In this document: one piece after another, positions 1-9,719 of the stretch | How the letters are laid out: the number at the start of each line of letters is the position of its first letter | Position numbering within the stretch: position 1 is the first letter of the stretch | Assembly: GCF_029027585.1 (NCBI RefSeq) | Contig: NZ_CP093397.1 | Coordinates: 2,407,405 to 2,471,404 of the forward strand | Source: Sulfurimonas sp. | GTDB lineage: Bacteria > Campylobacterota > Campylobacteria > Campylobacterales > Sulfurimonadaceae | Reading direction: 5' to 3' | Length of the DNA stretch: 64,000 bases | The notes under the pieces: model-generated | Databases searched by the model: none | What the model was told of the DNA's origin: nothing | Seen by the model: only the letters and a program-made list of their open reading frames with translations | Program-made: the position numbers and the translations under genes

Positions 1-1099
1 GAAATTTAATCTCAATTCTTCTAGAAGCGTCTTTGTCTTCTTTTTTATTTTTTGTAAGAATAGGTTGTGCAAATGAACGACCACTTGCGCTTAAATATTT
101 TTTGAAAAGTTTTCTATTTTTAGGATACTGTTTATATAAAAAACGCATAACTGCCAAAGCTCTTTGTTGAGATAAATCAAGGTTGTAAAGGTATGAGCCA
201 TCAGAGTTTGTATGTCCCTCTATCGTTATCAAGTCAATATAACGACGCATTTTAGCGTCATTTAGCAGTACATCTATATAACGACCTAATATACGACTAA
301 GCTCTTTTTTAGCACCTATTTTTAGTTCTGATTTTCCTTGATTAAAAAGAATATTTGAGCTAAAAGATAAGGCTCCTGTTTGGGGGTTTATTTGGATAGA
401 ATCACCTAGTTTTCTCTTAAGTCTTCTAACTACAGAAATTTTTATACCTGTTAAGTTTTTAATTTTAATTTTAGTTATATTTAAATCTTCAACAACTCTT
501 TGATAATCTCTTGCTTTTAGAAGTAGGGCTTTTTCAAGTTGAGCTATCTCTTCATCTTTTATTTGTATAAAACTACTATCTAGTTCATGTCTAATATTTG
601 CATTTTTAGCATAAGTCTTAAGACTTGAAACTTCTTTATTAAGTATATTTATCTTAAATCCCAACATATCTGCATCTTCTTCACTTGCAAGTAGTAACTC
701 TTTTAAAGACTGCATCTCTTTGTCATTTAGTGATAGTTTTGAAGCTTTTGTTTCTATGTTTAAATTTAAAAATGATATATCATCTTTTAATTCACTTGTT
801 TCACTCTCCAGCCTACTTATCATAAGACTTAATTTCATGTTTTTTTCTCTTGAAGCGCGGAGTTTTTTTACAAGTTCACGAAGTTTACTTTTTTTATCAA
901 AAAGTTCAGACTCACTCATTTGTAAAGCACTTTTCTCTTTTTGCAGGTTTATACGAATGGTTTCTAAGTCACTTTGCATAAGTAATGTTTTTACTACTAT
1001 CGCACCAACAACGAGTATGAAAACAAAAAGAAGACCAGCCATTAAGTCAGCATAAGACACCCAAAAGTTCTGATTTTCTTCTTTATTTTGCTTTAACAT
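1..1099 (-). CDS. MotB/OmpA-like stator or peptidoglycan-anchor protein (3' end cut by window)
   Basis: I read 366 codons from an ATG at 1099 down to the window edge. The N-terminus carries one membrane helix containing VSYADLMAGLLFVFILVVG, with the acidic residue placed as the ion-binding Asp in MotB-type stators. Roughly residues 35-215 are Lys/Glu/Leu-rich coiled coil. The last ~130 residues look like an OmpA/MotB peptidoglycan-binding domain (ITIEGHTNSDGS, then LSQQRALAVMRFL and ASRRIEIKF), so only a short tail is missing. The gene starts 6 bp after the MotA-like gene, so the two probably form one ion channel. The coiled coil is longer than in flagellar MotB, and no flagellar gene lies nearby. 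ZorB-like or another MotB-type family is possible; the exact role is unknown. Confidence 0.85.
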   Translation of the reverse strand, partial: MLKQNKEENQNFWVSYADLMAGLLFVFILVVGAIVVKTLLMQSDLETIRINLQKEKSALQMSESELFDKKSKLRELVKKLRASREKNMKLSLMISRLESETSELKDDISFLNLNIETKASKLSLNDKEMQSLKELLLASEEDADMLGFKINILNKEVSSLKTYAKNANIRHELDSSFIQIKDEEIAQLEKALLLKARDYQRVVEDLNITKIKIKNLTGIKISVVRRLKRKLGDSIQINPQTGALSFSSNILFNQGKSELKIGAKKELSRILGRYIDVLLNDAKMRRYIDLITIEGHTNSDGSYLYNLDLSQQRALAVMRFLYKQYPKNRKLFKKYLSASGRSFAQPILTKNKKEDKDASRRIEIKF

Positions 1100-1105
1100 A
1101 AGATT

Positions 1106-2194
1106 TTATTTATTCATATTTGAGAAAGCTTCATTTAGTTTACTACTATTTTCACTTAATATTTCAGCAATCATAACGGCACGGGAAAATTCAGCTGAAA
1201 GCGAATTGTGCGCTTTGTCTAAGGTGTTATGTTGAGCATTGATATTTGATGAAAAATTTTCAAATTTTTGGATTGTTTTATCAAAAATAGATGCCAAATC
1301 TTTTTGCTTTGAAGCAATATTACTAACCATGTCGGCGCTCTCTTGTAAAATTTTTGACACTTTGAGAGTAGCTTTTTGTTCTTGGTCTATGATTTGTTCA
1401 AATATATTCATTCTTTGAGCAAGTGCTTGGTTAAGGTTTTCAACAAAAGCACCAGATGCAAAGGTATCAAAAACACTATTTAATTTTTCAAAGTTTTCCA
1501 TACTCTTCTTGAAGTATGTTTGCTCAATCTCTTCTTTTTGCCAAAAATATTCACTTGTTGCTTCTTTTATAAGATTTGCATCTTTTTGAAAACGACTCAT
1601 TCCTGTTTTTTCAAAAAATATCCACCAAATAGATAAAAATATACCATAAATAGAAACATAAAAAGCTGTACCAACTCCTCCCAAAAGTTTTGAAATTTCT
1701 TCTTCAAGAACTTGTGAGGTTTGTGAAGAAAAGTCAGGCATTGAGATTGCAATACTAATAAAAGTACCTAAAATACCCAAAGTTGGAAATATGCCAGCAG
1801 CAATTGAAGAAAAATTTTCATTTCTCATTTTTTTTGCTTCTTGGCTTAAAAAATCTTCTAAAGAAGCATTTGCTTTTTCAATACCTGCAATAAATAGAAG
1901 GTTCTTGTTTATAAAAACAACTAAATTACTTTTAACTTCATCAAAATTTTTTCTAAGTTTACAAGAAGCATAATAAGCATTATGTCTTACGAAAAATAGA
2001 TAAATGACAAAAATAGCACCAAGCATTAAAATACTGTGTATCTCAACACGAAAATTTATGAGTTTTAGATAACCTGCTAGAGCAAATGCTAAAAGAAAAA
2101 TAGGTACCGAAAGTAACCATAAAAACCTAAAAGAACAATCTCGTCCTTTACCTAAAACTACTGACAGTTGATTAAACTCTTCTATATCTTGCAT
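1106..2194 (-). CDS. MotA/TolQ/ExbB-family proton channel protein
   Basis: A 362-residue inner-membrane protein. Two hydrophobic segments lie near residues 22-70. A conserved MotA/TolQ/ExbB core follows at about 130-200, with IFPTLGILGTFISIAISMP and then GGVGTAFYVSIYGIFLS. A cytoplasmic tail of about 160 residues is predicted coiled coil. Its ATG directly abuts the TAG of the preceding secreted-protein gene (TAGATG), and the OmpA/MotB-like gene follows 6 bp later, so it is the channel half of a two-component ion-driven machine. The tail is too long for ExbB or TolQ and the protein is not a flagellar MotA. The architecture resembles ZorA, but no ZorC, ZorD or ZorE is visible on the upstream side. 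The family is clear; the function is open. Confidence 0.82.
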   Translation of the reverse strand: MQDIEEFNQLSVVLGKGRDCSFRFLWLLSVPIFLLAFALAGYLKLINFRVEIHSILMLGAIFVIYLFFVRHNAYYASCKLRKNFDEVKSNLVVFINKNLLFIAGIEKANASLEDFLSQEAKKMRNENFSSIAAGIFPTLGILGTFISIAISMPDFSSQTSQVLEEEISKLLGGVGTAFYVSIYGIFLSIWWIFFEKTGMSRFQKDANLIKEATSEYFWQKEEIEQTYFKKSMENFEKLNSVFDTFASGAFVENLNQALAQRMNIFEQIIDQEQKATLKVSKILQESADMVSNIASKQKDLASIFDKTIQKFENFSSNINAQHNTLDKAHNSLSAEFSRAVMIAEILSENSSKLNEAFSNMNK

Positions 2195-3229
2195 CTAGCG
2201 AAACACCTTGTCACAATCTTTTTGAATAGCCCCTGGAATAGTAGCAATTGTCATAAACTCCGACATTGAAAGGTTTGGATACATTATTGCTATATAGTAT
2301 TTTGGTGCAAGTATTTTAGCTACATTATCTTCTATGAGAATAGGATAAGGTAGCAGTTCACTATTTTGATAACCAGTTTTTTTAACAAACTTGCTTGTTC
2401 TTCTTGATAGTTTAACACCAATGACAACTGAGCCATTATCTAAATGATGTTCATAGATAATTTTTTTTGATTTTCGAGCTTTTTTTAGAAGTTTTTTATT
2501 TTCACCAATTGCTACTTTAATCATATCTTGATAATGTGGCATATTTTGCATAAATTGGTATCTATTTAGTCTTGCAAATTTTACAATATCTTTTGAGTCT
2601 TTTAAATCACTAAAGATAGAGTGTAAATCTTTTAATGTTTTTTTAGTCACTTTTTCATCATAATTATCTTGCATAAAGGCTTTGTTGACATATAAAGGAT
2701 TTAAGATGCTGATTTGAGAATTCTTCTTATCTATTAGAAGTCTAATAGAACCAGAAAAACCTCTTTTAGTCTTTGAAGCCATCTTTGTTAGTTCGTCGTT
2801 TGTAAAAATCATGGATATATAATTTGCTTTTTTATCAACTTTATATTCACCAAGGATTTTAAAACCAGCACTTTGTAGTCTTTGTGTAAGTTCTTCTTTT
2901 GTAATGATTGAGGTCTGTAAATATGCACTAACTCTAGAGTTTTTTACTTCGCCTGCTTTAGTATTTTTTATAGTTGTATTACTCGTTTGTTTGTAATAGT
3001 TTGGAGGAACTCTTTTACTACCGCCAATAGCACTAGTCTTTGTAGTATTAGTTGTTTTGTTTACTTGTTGTGAGTTTTGTATCACAATGACAGAAGGAAC
3101 TTTTGCTTGAACCTTTGGTGCTCTTGGCACATCAATTATGATAGTTTTGTTCTGAGTAGCATATAAATTTGACATACTTAAAATAGAAAAAAGTGTTATG
3201 CATAAAACTTTAAAGAAGTTAGTTTTCAT
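2195..3229 (-). CDS. Secreted basic protein, possibly DUF302-like, in the MotAB-like cluster
   Basis: A 344-residue protein with a clear signal peptide (residues 1-24, ending NLYA). A Thr/Asn/Lys-rich low-complexity linker covers about 25-100. A globular part begins near 104, where ITKEELTQRLQSAGFKILGE and the later ISILNPLYVN resemble the DUF302 fold; I hold this assignment weakly. The C-terminal half is lysine-rich (KKLLKKARKSKK) and probably faces periplasm or envelope. It directly abuts the MotA-like gene and is probably translationally coupled to it, so I infer a periplasmic partner of the channel. No catalytic motif is visible. Confidence 0.7.
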   Translation of the reverse strand: MKTNFFKVLCITLFSILSMSNLYATQNKTIIIDVPRAPKVQAKVPSVIVIQNSQQVNKTTNTTKTSAIGGSKRVPPNYYKQTSNTTIKNTKAGEVKNSRVSAYLQTSIITKEELTQRLQSAGFKILGEYKVDKKANYISMIFTNDELTKMASKTKRGFSGSIRLLIDKKNSQISILNPLYVNKAFMQDNYDEKVTKKTLKDLHSIFSDLKDSKDIVKFARLNRYQFMQNMPHYQDMIKVAIGENKKLLKKARKSKKIIYEHHLDNGSVVIGVKLSRRTSKFVKKTGYQNSELLPYPILIEDNVAKILAPKYYIAIMYPNLSMSEFMTIATIPGAIQKDCDKVFR

Positions 3230-3280
3230 GGTATTCCTAATGCTGTAGGGAGCTAGATGCTCCCTAGATTTAAATAAGGT

Positions 3281-4165
3281 CTATTTTTTAGAAGCTTTAT
3301 ATTTTTTATACTCTTCATACTCTTTATCAGTTAACGAATGAGTAGCATCGTTTGCATTTTCTGTTGCACTAATTGTTGATTTGCGAGTATCATTTGAGAT
3401 AGTTTTCGTAGAATCATTTGCATTTTCTGTTGCACTAACTGATGATTTACGAGTATCATTTGAGATAGTCTTAGTAGAATCATTGAAGTTAGAAGAAGTT
3501 GTCTCTGTTGAATTTTTGATATCTCCAGATACAGTTTTAGTAGAATCATTGAAGTTATTAGAAGTTGTTTTAGTAGAATCATTCAAATTGTTTGAAGTAG
3601 TCTTAGTAGAGTCATTCAAGTTATTTGATGTAGTTTCTGTTGAACTTTTAAGGTCACCTGAAACAGTTTTAGTAGAGTCATTCAAATTGTTTGATGTAGT
3701 TTTAGTTGCATCATTTACATCATGAGAAACTGCTATAGTAGAATCTTTAAAATCTTTTGTAGCCATAGTTGAGCTATCTTTAAAGTCACGACTTGTATTA
3801 GAGATACTATCTTTAGAATCTTCTGCTAACTCTATTGTGCTATCACGAACATCACGACTTACACTTGTGGTAGAAACCTCTCCACTTTTAACTGTTGCAA
3901 TTTCACTAGTCTTCAGATCATCAGATGCTTTTACAGCAGTATCACGAGCGTCATGTCCTAAAGAAGTGACAGTTCTCTCACCGCTTTTACTTACTTCAAC
4001 TCCACCATCTTTCATAGAATCTGCTGTATCACGAGCATCATGACTCATAGTTGTAGTTGCGTCTTTCATGTCTTTAAACATATCACCAAAACTAAAATCA
4101 CCAGCTGACACTGTTGAAGTTAATAGACTTAATACTATAGTACTCATTAGAATTATTTTTTTCAT
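3281..4165 (-). CDS. Secreted hendecad (11-residue) repeat protein, LEA-like
   Basis: A 294-residue protein with a signal peptide (cleavage near STVSA, residue 21). Residues 72-280 form 19 consecutive 11-residue units without interruption, with consensus close to (D/N)-x-N-D-S-T-K-T-x-S-(N/G). An 11-residue period suits a straight amphipathic 11/3 helix, as in group 3 LEA proteins, here Ser/Thr/Asp/Lys-rich with almost no aromatics. The C-terminus is charged (YEEYKKYKASKK). It precedes the secreted-protein/MotA/MotB genes by 51 bp on the same strand and may share their transcript. I recognise no named family; function unknown, perhaps envelope or desiccation-type protection or a structural rod. 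Confidence 0.75.
   Translation of the reverse strand: MKKIILMSTIVLSLLTSTVSAGDFSFGDMFKDMKDATTTMSHDARDTADSMKDGGVEVSKSGERTVTSLGHDARDTAVKASDDLKTSEIATVKSGEVSTTSVSRDVRDSTIELAEDSKDSISNTSRDFKDSSTMATKDFKDSTIAVSHDVNDATKTTSNNLNDSTKTVSGDLKSSTETTSNNLNDSTKTTSNNLNDSTKTTSNNFNDSTKTVSGDIKNSTETTSSNFNDSTKTISNDTRKSSVSATENANDSTKTISNDTRKSTISATENANDATHSLTDKEYEEYKKYKASKK
3326..3853 (-). repeat. Tandem 33-bp coding repeats (16 units)
   Basis: These bases encode residues 105-280 of the hendecad protein as sixteen uninterrupted 33-bp units. The central units, about 3485-3720, are nearly identical at the DNA level. Such an array can gain or lose units by recombination without breaking frame. The low complexity also opens long spurious frames on both strands here, which I do not regard as genes. 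Confidence 0.8.
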
Positions 4166-4552: not shown

Positions 4553-4960
4553 GTGAAAAAAACATTAGCAACTTTATTATTAAGTACGGCACTTTTTTCT
4601 GGTGTTTATACGAAGCAAGATCGCATAAAAGATATGCAAGTTATGGCAGAAGCAATGACAACTATTGGAACTGGTTTTTTTTATAATAATAATGATATAG
4701 TTCAAAATGGTGCTTTAGCACTCTCAGATGCTATAAGAAGAGTTCAGCCACCATTGCAAGAACTAGAAGAAAAAGACCCAATGACTAGATATATGAATAA
4801 TAAAATAATATTTAGCAATAAAATAGTTAAAACTATTGATAAAAAGGCAAAGATTATTATCCAAAGATTTGCTACTGGTGATGTTCAAGCTGCAACTCAA
4901 GCATATACAAAGATAATGAAGCAATGTATGAAGTGTCATCACGAAATTCGTCAATGGTGA
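4553..4960 (+). CDS. Cytochrome c'-like periplasmic monohaem protein
   Basis: A 135-residue protein starting at GTG, with AAGG eight bases upstream. The short hydrophobic N-terminus (TLATLLLSTALFSGV) acts as export signal. The body is predicted helical and ends in CMKCHHEIRQW, a single CxxCH haem-binding site close to the C-terminus. That placement and length are typical of cytochrome c' (Cytochrom_C_2, four-helix bundle), not class I cytochromes. It lies 4 bp upstream of a membrane fusion protein gene in an RND efflux operon. This suggests a haem-based sensor, scavenger or periplasmic accessory of the pump rather than a simple electron carrier; that is inference. Distal haem-pocket residues cannot be judged. 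Confidence 0.75.
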   Translation: MKKTLATLLLSTALFSGVYTKQDRIKDMQVMAEAMTTIGTGFFYNNNDIVQNGALALSDAIRRVQPPLQELEEKDPMTRYMNNKIIFSNKIVKTIDKKAKIIIQRFATGDVQAATQAYTKIMKQCMKCHHEIRQW

Positions 4961-4964
4961 TATA

Positions 4965-5777
4965 TTGAAAAATATTTTTTTAACAATTTTTATTTTATTA
5001 AGCATTGATGTTTTGGCATTTGAGTTGCCAATAACAGGAACTGTCGTGTCTTACAATCAAAAAATGGTTGGAGCAAGGTATATGGGTTATATAAAAAACA
5101 TATATTTTGACATTGGAGATAGGGTAGAGAGAGAAGATACTCTTTTTGAAATGGAATCTGCCGAGTTTGATATCTTAAAATCTCAAGCAGATTTGGCTCT
5201 TGAACAAGCAAATTCCATTGTAAATATGTATAAGACTCGTATGGACTCTATCAACAGAGAGAGAAAAGCACTAAAAAAACAAGGTATGTTCAACCCAGAG
5301 GATATGCAAAATCTTGATATAACAGCCGATAATGTTTCAGCAGGACTAGCGTCTGCCCAAGTTCTAGTGAAAAATGCTGCTTCAAAAATAAAACAAGTTG
5401 CAACTGTTACAGGTTACTTAGAGATAAAGGCACCAAACAGTGGTATCATAGTTGAAAAAAGAATCCGAGTTGGAGATTTAGTCTCACCAGGTATGCTTGG
5501 TATGATAATTGTTGATTTAGAGCATTTACAAATTGAAGGCGAAGTTGCAGAATCAGATTTAAAATATGTAAACAAGTATCAAAAAGTAAAAATAGAAATC
5601 CCTTCTATTAGCTATCGAGATACAGGTTATATCAAATCAGTAGTACCTAGTGCAAATCCAATGGCACACACATTTAAAATAATTATAAATTTCAAAAAGA
5701 AGAGTGAAAAAATATTTCCTGGAATGTATGCAAAAATTCTCATCAAAATAGATGATAAATATTATACAAGAGATTAG
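4965..5777 (+). CDS. RND efflux periplasmic adaptor (membrane fusion protein)
   Basis: A 270-residue protein starting at TTG, 4 bp after the cytochrome c'-like gene. A signal peptide (to about residue 19, IDVLA) precedes a split lipoyl/barrel-sandwich domain (TGTVVSYNQKMVGARYMGYI and IKAPNSGIIVEKRIRVGD), a short helical hairpin at about 65-130, and a beta-barrel domain (LEHLQIEGEVAESDLKYV). It lacks the lipobox Cys seen in the second adaptor of this window and is short for the family. It should link the split RND permease encoded 4 bp downstream to an outer-membrane TolC-like channel; no such gene is in this operon. Confidence 0.85.
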   Translation: MKNIFLTIFILLSIDVLAFELPITGTVVSYNQKMVGARYMGYIKNIYFDIGDRVEREDTLFEMESAEFDILKSQADLALEQANSIVNMYKTRMDSINRERKALKKQGMFNPEDMQNLDITADNVSAGLASAQVLVKNAASKIKQVATVTGYLEIKAPNSGIIVEKRIRVGDLVSPGMLGMIIVDLEHLQIEGEVAESDLKYVNKYQKVKIEIPSISYRDTGYIKSVVPSANPMAHTFKIIINFKKKSEKIFPGMYAKILIKIDDKYYTRD

Positions 5778-5781
5778 ATAA

Positions 5782-7359
5782 ATGTCTGAGGCTTATAAAA
5801 GTAAAAATATAGCTGGATATTTAGCCCAAGCATTTTTAAACAATCCCCTTACTATGGTTTTTGCAATCTCCATCATTCTTCTTGGTTATATCACTTTAAA
5901 TATTGCACCAAGAGAAGAAGACCCTCAGATAGAGGTCAGTGGTGGTTCAATTATCATAATGATACCAGGGGCATCTCCAAAAGCGATAACAAATGTTGTT
6001 ATAAAACCACTTGAGAGAAGAATACGCGAGATTAAAGGGGTTGAGCATATTTACGGTACTGCGATGAATAATGTTGGTATGATAAATGTACAATATTTTA
6101 TAGGCGAAGATAGAGAATCCTCAAATCTTAAACTATATGATAAAGTAATGCAAAATATGGATACCTTACCTAAGGGCATAGGAATGCCGTTAGTTAAACC
6201 TTTTGATATAGATATTGATATCCCTGTTGTAACAGTTGCTTTTTATCAAAAAGACTCAACCAAACCAAGCACTTTAAAGCAATATCACATAGTAAGAGAA
6301 GTTCAGCAAGAGATAAATGCATTAAATAATGTGTCTAAAAGCACTCTAAAAGGTATGCATAAGCCACAGTTTAATATAAAAGTAGATATAGACAAACTAT
6401 CTTCTTATCATCTATCTTTAGGTCAAATAGCGGCTTCTGTTAAAGCGATTGCAACAAATGCACCAAATATTAATGCCCCAACAAGCAATAATTCTATAAT
6501 TGTTTTTGGTGTTAAAAATGCAATAGAAGATATAGATGATTTAAAAGATTTAATAATTGCACAATATATGGGTTCTCCAATTTATCTTAAAAATGTTGCA
6601 AAGATTGAATATGGATATGATATACAACATTTTCAAAATTCTCTTATTTCACAAAGAGATAATAATAGCTCTTTTGATGAACCTGTCCAGCAAGTAACGC
6701 TAACTGTGTCAAAGTTAAAAGGTACAAATGCTGTTTATGTGGCTGAGGATGTTTTAGATTTACTAAATAAAAGAAGTGAATTTTTTAATCAAGAGGGCAT
6801 AGGATACATCATTACAAGAAACTATGGAGAGAGAGCAAATGAAGCTGTTGGTGAACTTATGCATCATCTTGTCATAACCATAGGAATTATTGGTCTTATT
6901 CTTATCCCGTTTCTTGGATGGAGAGAGTCTTTAGTTGTGTCTATTGCAGTTCCTATGATTTTAGCTACAACACTTTTTATAGCTTATATGACAGACCAAA
7001 CTATAAATAGAATTACACTTTTTGCGTTTTTACTTAGTCTAGGGCTTATTGTAGATGATGCAATTATTGTTATAGAAAATATACATAGAAGAATGCACTT
7101 AAAAGAAACAAAAGATCATAGTTTTGATCGTATTATCGTTGAAGCAACAGATGAGATAGGACCTTCAACAAATATAGCAACAATAGCAATTATATTAACT
7201 ATGGTTCCTATGGGTTTTGTTGGTGGGATGATGGGGCAGTTTATGAAACCCATACCATTAAATGTGCCAGTTGCTTTGGCAGTTTCACTTTTTGTAGCTT
7301 ATGTATTTACTCCATTCTTAGCTAAAAAGATGATTAAGCGTGCAAAAGGAACGCACTAA
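5782..7359 (+). CDS. RND efflux permease, N-terminal half (TM1-TM6)
   Basis: A 525-residue protein corresponding to the first half of an AcrB-type permease of about 1,050 residues. TM1 is at about 18-38. The PN1/PN2 porter and docking region follows to about 350 (EEDPQIEVSGGSIIIMIPGA; PLERRIREIKGVEHIYGTA). TM2-TM6 occupy the rest, with the TM4 proton-relay motif GLIVDDAIIVIENIHRRM carrying both Asp residues. Translation stops just after TM6 (PFLAKKMIKRAKGTH) in a TAATG overlap with the gene for the second half. The substrate cannot be read from the sequence; HAE-like drugs or HME-like metals are both possible. Confidence 0.88.
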   Translation: MSEAYKSKNIAGYLAQAFLNNPLTMVFAISIILLGYITLNIAPREEDPQIEVSGGSIIIMIPGASPKAITNVVIKPLERRIREIKGVEHIYGTAMNNVGMINVQYFIGEDRESSNLKLYDKVMQNMDTLPKGIGMPLVKPFDIDIDIPVVTVAFYQKDSTKPSTLKQYHIVREVQQEINALNNVSKSTLKGMHKPQFNIKVDIDKLSSYHLSLGQIAASVKAIATNAPNINAPTSNNSIIVFGVKNAIEDIDDLKDLIIAQYMGSPIYLKNVAKIEYGYDIQHFQNSLISQRDNNSSFDEPVQQVTLTVSKLKGTNAVYVAEDVLDLLNKRSEFFNQEGIGYIITRNYGERANEAVGELMHHLVITIGIIGLILIPFLGWRESLVVSIAVPMILATTLFIAYMTDQTINRITLFAFLLSLGLIVDDAIIVIENIHRRMHLKETKDHSFDRIIVEATDEIGPSTNIATIAIILTMVPMGFVGGMMGQFMKPIPLNVPVALAVSLFVAYVFTPFLAKKMIKRAKGTH

Positions 7360-9113
7360 TGGAAGAACTGATATATGGTATTATAGGTTCAAAAGCTAAA
7401 AGAAGAAAGGTTATACTATATATAGTTTTAGCTTTTTTACTATCAGTTATGCTCATTCCAACAAAGTTAGTTCTGGCAAAAATGCTACCTGGGAAAAGTG
7501 CAAATACTTTTAGCATCTATGTAGATACAGCTACTAATAGTTCGATTGGAGAAACTAGCAGCGTCACAAATTGTGTTTTGTCGTATTTGAAAAAAGAAGA
7601 AGCTGTTAAAAATATTGAAATATATTTGGCTCAAGGAGCACCACTGGATTATGCAGGGTTAGTTAAAGGTAGTGCCCTGAAGAGAATGAAAAACCAAGCT
7701 GAGATGGTTATAAATCTTAGTGATAAACATTCACGAGATGAAACATCATATAAAATGGTACATAGAATTCGTCCTTTAATCCAAAAAACTTGTGGAACTT
7801 TAGTGAATTCTACATCTATTAAATTTGTAGAAATGCCTTCAGGTCCACCAACTTTTGCAACTTTAGAGATTAATATTTTTGGTAAAGATGATGAGTTGAT
7901 GCGTAGAACTGCTAATCGTGTAGCTATGATTTTAGGTCAAACAGATGGTTTAGTTGATATAGATGTTATGCAAGATGATATATATCCATACTTTGAAATA
8001 ATTCCAGACAAAGAAAAAGTTATAAAAAGTGGTCTTAGTGTTGATCAGGTAAATAATATTTTATATATTGCTTTTGAGGGTATGGTTGTTGCTGTTAAAA
8101 ACTCTAAAAAACAACAAGATCAAATTCCGATTTTTGTTCGTCTTGATGATAAAAGTCGAGAGATAATGTCAAATTCCAAATCAGCGATATACTTTAAATT
8201 GTCAAGATTAAAACTCTTAAATCAAAAGGGTATGATGATACCAATAAGAGAGGTTATAAGTGTAAATGAGATTCCATCTAGTCCAACTATTTTTAGAAAA
8301 AATTTACAAAATTTTGTGAGTATTAGTGCAGAATGTGATTTGGTTTCTCAGCTTTACCCACTCTTAGAAGCAAGAGATACAATAATAGAAAAACTATCAG
8401 ATGATTTTAATGTTACAAAAGTAGAAGGAATGTCAACTTATATGTTTGACTTAAACTTAGTAGAAAAAAATTCAGGTAAAAAAATGTTGCTTAGATGGGA
8501 TGGAGAGATGAAAGTTTCTCTTGATACTTTTCGTGACCTTGGTGGTGCTTTTATTGCAGCTCTTGTCTTGATGTTTTTACTTATGGTTATGTATTATAAG
8601 TCATTTGCCTTAAGTGGTATTATCTTATTAGCAAGTTTTTTGTCTATCATTGGGGTTATTACAGGGCATTTTATTACAGATATTATTTCGCTCTTCTTCG
8701 CAGATATAAACTTCTTTTTAACTGCTACTTCACTCATCGGTTTTATTTCTTTAATGGGTATAAGTGCTAGAAGTTCATTGTTACTTATAGATTTTTCTAT
8801 GGCACTTATAAAAAAAGGTGTAGAGAAAAGAAGAGCTATAGCAATTGCAACAGCAACAAGAGCAAAGCCAATCGTTATGACAGCAGTTGCAATTATATTA
8901 GGTTCATTATTACTCTCTACTGACCCTATTTTTGGTGGATTAGGTGTTGCTTTGATTTTTGGTTCTATTGCTTCTACGGTAGTGTCTTTGTTTTTAGTTC
9001 CTGTTTTAATAGTAAATACTGTGGCGATTTGTCCAGAGGGAATGGATCATAAACATCATGAATGTCATGGTGGGATAGCTGAACATGTGGATCCTGAAGA
9101 AATAGGCTTATAA
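7359..9113 (+). CDS. RND efflux permease, C-terminal half (TM7-TM12), His-rich tail
   Basis: A 584-residue protein corresponding to the second half of an RND permease. TM7 is near residues 20-42, the PC1/PC2 porter and docking region runs to about 385, and TM8-TM12 follow. It has its own Shine-Dalgarno (AAAAGGA at 7344-7350, 8 nt before ATG), so it is a real start and not just a remnant. The ATG overlaps the upstream stop by one base (TAATG), implying coupled translation. In TM10, where AcrB has [10 protein letters not shown], this protein has GISARSSLLLIDF, so the relay Lys appears replaced by Arg. The tail MDHKHHECHGG could bind metal. Both halves together should make the trimer-forming pump. 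Confidence 0.88.
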   Translation: MEELIYGIIGSKAKRRKVILYIVLAFLLSVMLIPTKLVLAKMLPGKSANTFSIYVDTATNSSIGETSSVTNCVLSYLKKEEAVKNIEIYLAQGAPLDYAGLVKGSALKRMKNQAEMVINLSDKHSRDETSYKMVHRIRPLIQKTCGTLVNSTSIKFVEMPSGPPTFATLEINIFGKDDELMRRTANRVAMILGQTDGLVDIDVMQDDIYPYFEIIPDKEKVIKSGLSVDQVNNILYIAFEGMVVAVKNSKKQQDQIPIFVRLDDKSREIMSNSKSAIYFKLSRLKLLNQKGMMIPIREVISVNEIPSSPTIFRKNLQNFVSISAECDLVSQLYPLLEARDTIIEKLSDDFNVTKVEGMSTYMFDLNLVEKNSGKKMLLRWDGEMKVSLDTFRDLGGAFIAALVLMFLLMVMYYKSFALSGIILLASFLSIIGVITGHFITDIISLFFADINFFLTATSLIGFISLMGISARSSLLLIDFSMALIKKGVEKRRAIAIATATRAKPIVMTAVAIILGSLLLSTDPIFGGLGVALIFGSIASTVVSLFLVPVLIVNTVAICPEGMDHKHHECHGGIAEHVDPEEIGL

Positions 9114-9149: not shown

Positions 9150-9719
9150 ATGAATAAAAAAATAGGACTTGTTTTAGTGGCATTGTTAGCAATAACATCA
9201 CTTAACGCAGAGGTTAAAAAGACTCTGTATAAAAATGGAAAAGTAAAGTTTGAGAAAACTTATAAAAATGGAAAGTTAAACGGTCATGCAAGAGTTTATT
9301 ATAAAAGTGGGCGTATAAAAACAAAAACATATTTTGTAAATGGTAAAGTAGATGGAGTTACTTATGGTTATTATGAAAATGGTAGATTAAAAGCAAAAAT
9401 TCCTATGAAAAAAGGTAAGATAAATGGAACTCAAAAAGAGTTTTACAATAACTCACAGTTAAAGTCAGTAAGTAATTACAAAATGGATAAGCTGATTGGA
9501 AATAAAAAAATCTACTATTCAAATGGAAGTATGAAGGCAAAACTTCAGTTTGATGATAATGGAAATTTTTATGGAACTCAAAAAGAGTATTATAAAAATG
9601 GAAATATGAAATATAGAGTTTCTATGGAAAATGGCAAAGCTAAAAAAGGTCGCATTTATGAGTTAGATGGTGAAAGTAGAAAAATGAATGAAGGTGATTT
9701 TGAAAAATTAGGATTTTAA
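9150..9719 (+). CDS. Secreted MORN-variant (YwqK-like) repeat protein
   Basis: A 189-residue protein with a signal peptide ending near LNA (residue 20). The rest is about seven tandem MORN_2-type units of 21-24 residues, for example TLYKNGKVKFEKTYKNGKLN and YYKSGRIKTKTYFVNGKVDG. It follows the pump gene by 36 bp with a strong AAGGAA ribosome site and is probably co-transcribed. Such YwqK-like repeats are often labelled antitoxin component in databases, but no toxin gene is present and the signal peptide argues for an envelope role. Function unknown. Confidence 0.75.
   Translation: MNKKIGLVLVALLAITSLNAEVKKTLYKNGKVKFEKTYKNGKLNGHARVYYKSGRIKTKTYFVNGKVDGVTYGYYENGRLKAKIPMKKGKINGTQKEFYNNSQLKSVSNYKMDKLIGNKKIYYSNGSMKAKLQFDDNGNFYGTQKEYYKNGNMKYRVSMENGKAKKGRIYELDGESRKMNEGDFEKLGF

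Follow-up and report, generated by a model that had tools for sequence, protein, structure and literature searches.

The gene cluster at the left edge of this Sulfurimonas sp. sequence raises the question of what kind of envelope machine is encoded by a MotA/MotB-like pair, and whether the two secreted proteins encoded beside the pair are parts of that machine. The window, a stretch of 64,000 nucleotides analyzed as a whole, had been interpreted in a sequence-only reading as carrying a MotA-like channel, a MotB-like protein with an OmpA domain and an abutting secreted protein in one tight unit, preceded by a secreted repeat protein. An ORF check gave a minus-strand gene order of Hend, Sec2, the MotA-like gene and the MotB-like gene (Table 1). 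The Sec2 and MotA genes abut at a TAGATG junction, the MotA and MotB genes are 6 bp apart, the Hend and Sec2 genes are separated by 51 bp, and a search for terminator-like sites between the four genes found none, in good agreement with the proposed tight unit. The MotB gene leaves the window at its left edge. Extension of the locus past position 1 recovered the end of MotB (about 60 bases, 20 further codons, in locus L021), followed on the opposite strand by flagellar motA, motB and fliP (L021 10772–13068) and other unrelated genes, without Zorya effectors. A scan of a collection of genome contigs gave two close relatives only. Relatives of the second half of the RND permease, which is present here as two ORFs, were found in 107 of the 120 genus genomes, mostly as ORFs of similar length.

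Table 1. Features at the left end of the window, with the evidence for each assignment.
Feature	Position	Strand	Evidence and remarks
MotB/ZorB-like subunit	2–1099	-	OmpA (Pfam) 3.6e-12; best solved relative ZorB 8qyd_F, E 5.5e-25
MotA/ZorA-like channel subunit	1106–2194	-	362 aa; MotA_ExbB (Pfam) 1.4e-9; AlphaFold model; Foldseek
Sec2, secreted basic protein	2195–3229	-	344 aa; disordered N-terminal part, then two predicted DUF302-fold domains (model)
Hend, secreted 11-residue-repeat protein	3281–4165	-	294 aa; period analysis; synteny
Secreted c-type cytochrome (cytochrome c'-like, CytC')	4553–4960	+	CxxCH motif; Cytochrom_C_2 5.6e-4, weak, under the Pfam cut-off; synteny
RND-type periplasmic adaptor (HlyD/CusB-like)	4965–5777	+	HlyD_D23 3.3e-25; TIGR01730 7.9e-25, slightly under the cut-off
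RND permease as two ORFs	5782–7359 and 7359–9113	+	525 and 584 aa; NCBIfam RND permease models match each half
MORN_2-repeat protein	9150–9719	+	MORN_2 3.4e-19

The assignment of the pair as a MotA-like channel with a MotB-like/OmpA partner was confirmed by the Pfam matches in Table 1, together with a weak match to MotB_plug. The MotA-like protein has transmembrane (TM) helices followed by a C-terminal helical cytoplasmic tail. In the AlphaFold model, the stretch between TM2 and TM3 contains three short helices (residues 73–82, 84–97, and 112–123) and a beta hairpin at residues 99–108 (strands 99–102 and 105–108). The MotB-like protein starts with a TM helix carrying Asp18, continues with about 170 residues that are likely to form a coiled coil, and ends in an OmpA peptidoglycan-binding domain. 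Asp18 of MotB was invariant in the 27 homologues aligned, and Thr144 of MotA was invariant among its aligned homologues. Profiles built from 28 MotA and 27 MotB homologues were searched against the PDB. The MotA profile matched ZorA (8vvi) at 6e-10, and the MotB profile placed ZorB (8qyd_F) ahead of flagellar MotB (8ucs, about 4e-9). In a Foldseek search with the MotA model, the seven best matches were all ZorA, followed by ExbB and TolQ. Among solved structures, the sequence profiles and the predicted fold place the pair closest to ZorA and ZorB, with MotAB, TolQR, and ExbBD more distant. The B subunits of TolQR and ExbBD are short, lack an OmpA domain, and belong to Tol or Ton operons, whereas the MotB-like protein has such a domain; no tol or ton genes were evident among the adjacent ORFs, and no GldLM match to the pair was obtained in Pfam and NCBIfam scans. 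The earlier statement that the pair is neither flagellar MotAB nor TolQR nor ExbBD was thus upheld by sequence and fold, by the OmpA domain on the B subunit, and by the occurrence of the pair where no FliP was found (see below). The suggestion of a structurally new type of machine was not, because ZorA and ZorB are the nearest relatives by both profile and fold.

We compared the pair with ZorAB of the Zorya system (PDB 8QYD, 8VVN, and 8VVI). Both have a MotA-like channel with a cytoplasmic helical tail and a beta element before TM3, and a MotB-like partner with a conserved Asp and an OmpA peptidoglycan-binding domain. A subunits of the Zorya type carry a beta-sheet element in their cytoplasmic domain (PMC12505986), and the hairpin between TM2 and TM3 of the MotA model corresponds to it; the PDB profiles, the fold search, and the PADLOC models all pointed to a ZorA/ZorB-type motor core. 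In contrast to the roughly 460 residues of the tail in type I ZorA, the MotA tail here comprises about 165–235 residues, and MotB is about 120–140 residues longer than the 246-residue ZorB of 8qyd, the extra part being mostly periplasmic coiled coil between the TM helix and the OmpA domain. The kinship with ZorAB and the 183 bits scored on this MotB by the PADLOC ZorB1 model would also suit an anti-phage Zorya motor that has diverged or become an orphan and whose effectors are of another type or lie elsewhere. However, the ZorB1 model scored about equally on the Campylobacter-type pair described below, so its name is not diagnostic for Zorya. Moreover, the models for ZorC, ZorD, and ZorE (PDLC00631, PDLC00617, and PDLC00643) gave no match in the genome of this organism (G000), in a search that covered the effectors of Zorya types I and II. 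As controls, ZorC and ZorD were recovered in the relative G058, whereas the sole positive for ZorE was the named E. coli control, so the sensitivity of the ZorE search among the relatives is less certain than that of the other two. The local neighbors of the pair are unrelated to Zorya effectors. In addition, unlike ZorAB of Zorya, the pair is spread over the whole order, with one match per genome and ordinary genes around it, and in this genome it stands without detected ZorC, ZorD, or ZorE. Identity as a Zorya system was therefore dropped, in line with the sequence-only reading, which had named such downstream effectors as a finding that would speak against its own proposal, and we regard the orphan-motor explanation as unlikely. 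G058, a Campylobacterales relative, carries ZorABCD, a full type I Zorya system (L035 1185–8437).

An accessory flagellar stator was also considered, as flagellar MotAB and PomAB likewise combine an ion channel with a peptidoglycan-anchored B subunit, and the true flagellar motA-motB-fliP genes lie about 2 to 4 kb downstream of the pair, similarly close in the related genomes G091, G085, and G096. The two gene sets are, however, on opposite strands and convergent. No FliP match was obtained in 10 of the 27 pair-bearing genomes searched, five of these ten being single-contig assemblies; they include the close relatives G304 and G375, both single-contig, whose MotA is 53–54% identical to that of the window. 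These FliP-negative carriers indicated that the pair is independent of a flagellum, whereas a flagellar stator occurs only with one. A torque interface of at least four A-subunit helices, as in flagellar stators, was not seen in the model, which has three short helices and the hairpin in this stretch, and similarity to flagellar MotAB and PomAB is weaker in both sequence and fold, the pair being nearer to ZorA than to MotA or PomA. The accessory stator, dropped on the absence of FliP, is barely credible.

The distribution of the pair was examined across Campylobacterales. MotA relatives were found in 121 of 299 genomes and in 27 of the 81 genera sampled, with one match per genome. Outside Sulfurimonas, the pair was a two-gene unit without a common secreted partner in the neighborhoods examined. 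The Campylobacter-type pair (G046), for example, shows about 38% and about 41% identity to the two proteins and the same gene order; it follows fba, in the fba/peb4 neighborhood, and differs from the pair in the window in having no secreted partners. We take its position to be that of Cj0598-Cj0599 of C. jejuni. Cj0598 is listed as of unknown function (PMC5841378), and Cj0599 has been called the major outer membrane protein (PMC2672935), which is probably a mislabel; a literature search on Sulfurimonas with DUF302, Cj0598, and Cj0599 found no function. In the MotA tree, the protein of G081 groups with family f20, which is likely to reflect one horizontal transfer of the pair, so that its inheritance is not purely vertical. 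The broad conservation in Campylobacterales suggests a standing envelope function.

Other MotAB lineages were encountered in the same survey. A second lineage in Sulfurimonas (33–35% identity) usually follows a MORN_2 protein gene, with the split RND genes facing it; the MORN_2 protein of the window shares its Pfam family with the secreted protein preceding the second-lineage MotA. MORN_2 repeat proteins thus recur beside RND genes (9150–9719) and beside the second MotAB type (L034 4528–5145). In G394 (L193 5596–9770), a second-type MotAB is located directly downstream of mreB and mreC, an adjacency that may hint at a role in the cell wall. A third type (L187–L191) has a MotA of 580–615 aa and a MotB of roughly 250 aa, without Zorya effectors nearby. 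The MotAB genes of G107 (L141 12097–14132) appear to be split by frameshifts or stops.

The relation of the secreted proteins to the pair was assessed by gene order. MotA-MotB lies directly downstream of Sec2 in the window species, G091, G085, and G096, whose MotA proteins group as a single clade in the tree; in G097 the contig ends inside MotA. Beyond this one small Sulfurimonas clade the four-gene order was not found, and neither Hend nor Sec2 was present beside the pair in the other families examined, or in G103, G066, and G081. Hend usually has a different neighbor. Among 31 Hend loci, 27 had a visible upstream gene and were therefore testable, and in 24 of these Hend stands head-to-head, about 170–390 bp apart, with the CytC' gene of a CytC'-HlyD-RND operon; in one further locus (G019), Sec2 lies between Hend and the cytochrome gene. 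This head-to-head order reaches another family (G394, G244, G255, and G317) and also occurs in genomes without a detected MotAB pair. In G394, Sec2, three Hend copies, and CytC'-HlyD are found together, with MotAB on another contig. The sequence-only reading had called the link of Hend to the motor only positional; the position stands, and the wider comparison added no support beyond it.

Hend had also been described as a secreted hendecad-repeat protein. An 11-residue period was evident, with a self-identity of 45% at a shift of 11 and 65% at a shift of 22. The repeat is rich in Ser, Thr, Asn, and Asp. With even partial hydrophobicity confined to about 2 of the 11 positions, a classical hendecad coiled coil is doubtful, while the periodicity of the description was retained. 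The length of Hend varies among species. In G096 (L128 8296–9181), Hend appears to be split by frameshifts or stops.

The sequence of Sec2 gave no significant match in Pfam, NCBIfam, PADLOC, or the PDB, and the Pfam DUF302 model (PF03625) matched neither Sec2 nor its short relative; the family was therefore placed by fold alone. The structural model has pLDDT values mostly above 90 for residues 95–344. Its residues of about 100–208 matched the DUF302 protein 1q9u (Z 10.8 over 108 residues) and those of about 237–344 matched the DUF302 protein 1j3m (Z 9.3 over 102 residues), and on this model Sec2 is a tandem DUF302-fold protein. Compared with DUF302 proteins (PDB 1Q9U and 1J3M; PF03625), both halves of Sec2 have the same predicted fold, and members of its family usually adjoin DUF302 proteins or are fused with them, but Sec2 falls below the Pfam model and has an additional disordered N-terminal part. 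Relatives of Sec2 were found in 59 of 299 genomes of the order. Some are shorter lipoproteins whose genes overlap the end of a DUF302 gene, and other families carry a fusion of the two. Sec2 probably belongs to the DUF302/efflux module rather than to the motor. A MotB-like neighbor of Sec2 in G113 and G036 disappeared on reannotation and was given no weight. We also observed a recurring set of a FadL-like outer membrane protein, a DUF302 protein, and a Sec2-family lipoprotein (L144 5958–9235, L055–L065). DUF302 genes have been reported in sox clusters of other sulfur oxidizers (PMC5037610), which we note as a lead only.

One four-gene system, in which MotAB would move the secreted helical Hend with Sec2 as a connector, was weighed against these data. 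Such a system would be consistent with the tight operon without a detected terminator, with the identical order in G091, G085, and G096 (and in G097 as far as its contig reaches), and with co-occurrence within the genus. Among 120 genus genomes, and with kinship uncorrected, the genes were found together more often than expected: Hend and Sec2 shared 17 genomes (of 26 and 19, p 2e-12), Hend and MotB shared 18 (of 26 and 32, p 2e-7), and Sec2 and MotB shared 16 (of 19 and 32, p 1e-8). Nevertheless, the pair occurs order-wide without the secreted genes, which are found at the other locus even in pair-negative genomes, as in the case of Hend, or with MotAB on a separate contig, as in G394. The notion of the secreted proteins as conserved motor partners was thus not sustained: secreted genes and channel pair are largely not conserved together, the within-genus co-occurrence, with kinship uncorrected, being the exception. 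The single-machine reading was dropped because its parts separate in relatives, and we consider it very unlikely. A functional link may exist, since two MotAB lineages in Sulfurimonas adjoin Hend and RND genes and the genes co-occur in the genus. Its strongest form, a Sulfurimonas motor mechanically coupled to the DUF302/Hend/efflux module, with ion-driven rotation or pull acting on the long secreted repeat protein, appears highly improbable; if it were true, function would explain why two MotAB lineages have repeatedly come to lie beside the same neighbors.

A feature peculiar to this organism was found in MotA. Compared with the sister genome G091 (92% identity), MotA carries a 204-bp in-frame deletion, with the loss of 68 residues including the conserved tail tip (the region of window positions 1106–1110 against L126 8402–8610). 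The tip is kept in most other aligned homologues, and its loss may have altered or impaired the motor of this organism. The deletion could mark a decaying copy, in which removal of the tip uncouples the motor in this organism only. The size of the loss relative to so close a sister argues for such decay, but the reading frame, the distance to MotB, and the rest of the core are all preserved, and the deletion might instead be an artefact of assembly or a shortening that leaves a working protein. We regard decay as a tentative explanation, possible though less than probable, and it is compatible with a ZorAB-type motor.

Taken together, a peptidoglycan-anchored ZorAB-type envelope motor beside a periplasmic module is the best account of the locus. 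We consider it probable that the pair is a ZorAB-type ion-driven motor, distinct from both Zorya and flagellar stators, and that Sec2 and Hend belong mainly to a separate DUF302/cytochrome/RND-efflux locus. This account is based on homology, conserved key residues, gene order, and the non-detection of effectors, from which we infer stoichiometry, rotation, direction of force, and function. ZorAB forms a 5:2 complex (PMC11890865), and by homology MotA and MotB are presumed to assemble likewise. Driven by ions passing Asp18 of MotB and polar residues of MotA, the MotA pentamer would rotate about the MotB dimer, which the OmpA domain would fix to peptidoglycan via a periplasmic coiled coil of unusual length. 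As it turns, the MotA tail, whose tip is conserved in most relatives, may pass force or a signal to a cytoplasmic or membrane partner. The location of Sec2 and Hend upstream of MotAB would be a lineage-specific placement that may give co-transcription, with no physical link implied.

If this account is correct, this motor, widespread in the order to which Campylobacter belongs, lacking Zorya effectors and present also in species where no flagellar export gene was detected, would be a non-defense member of the ZorAB-type class. Labels taken from Zorya gene models alone will be wrong for such pairs. The predicted tandem DUF302 fold of Sec2 offers a structure for an unnamed family tied to a cytochrome/RND locus in sulfur-oxidizing bacteria. 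The pair itself would be a candidate for the ancestral role behind the recruitment of such motors into Zorya, or for motor action that needs no effector.
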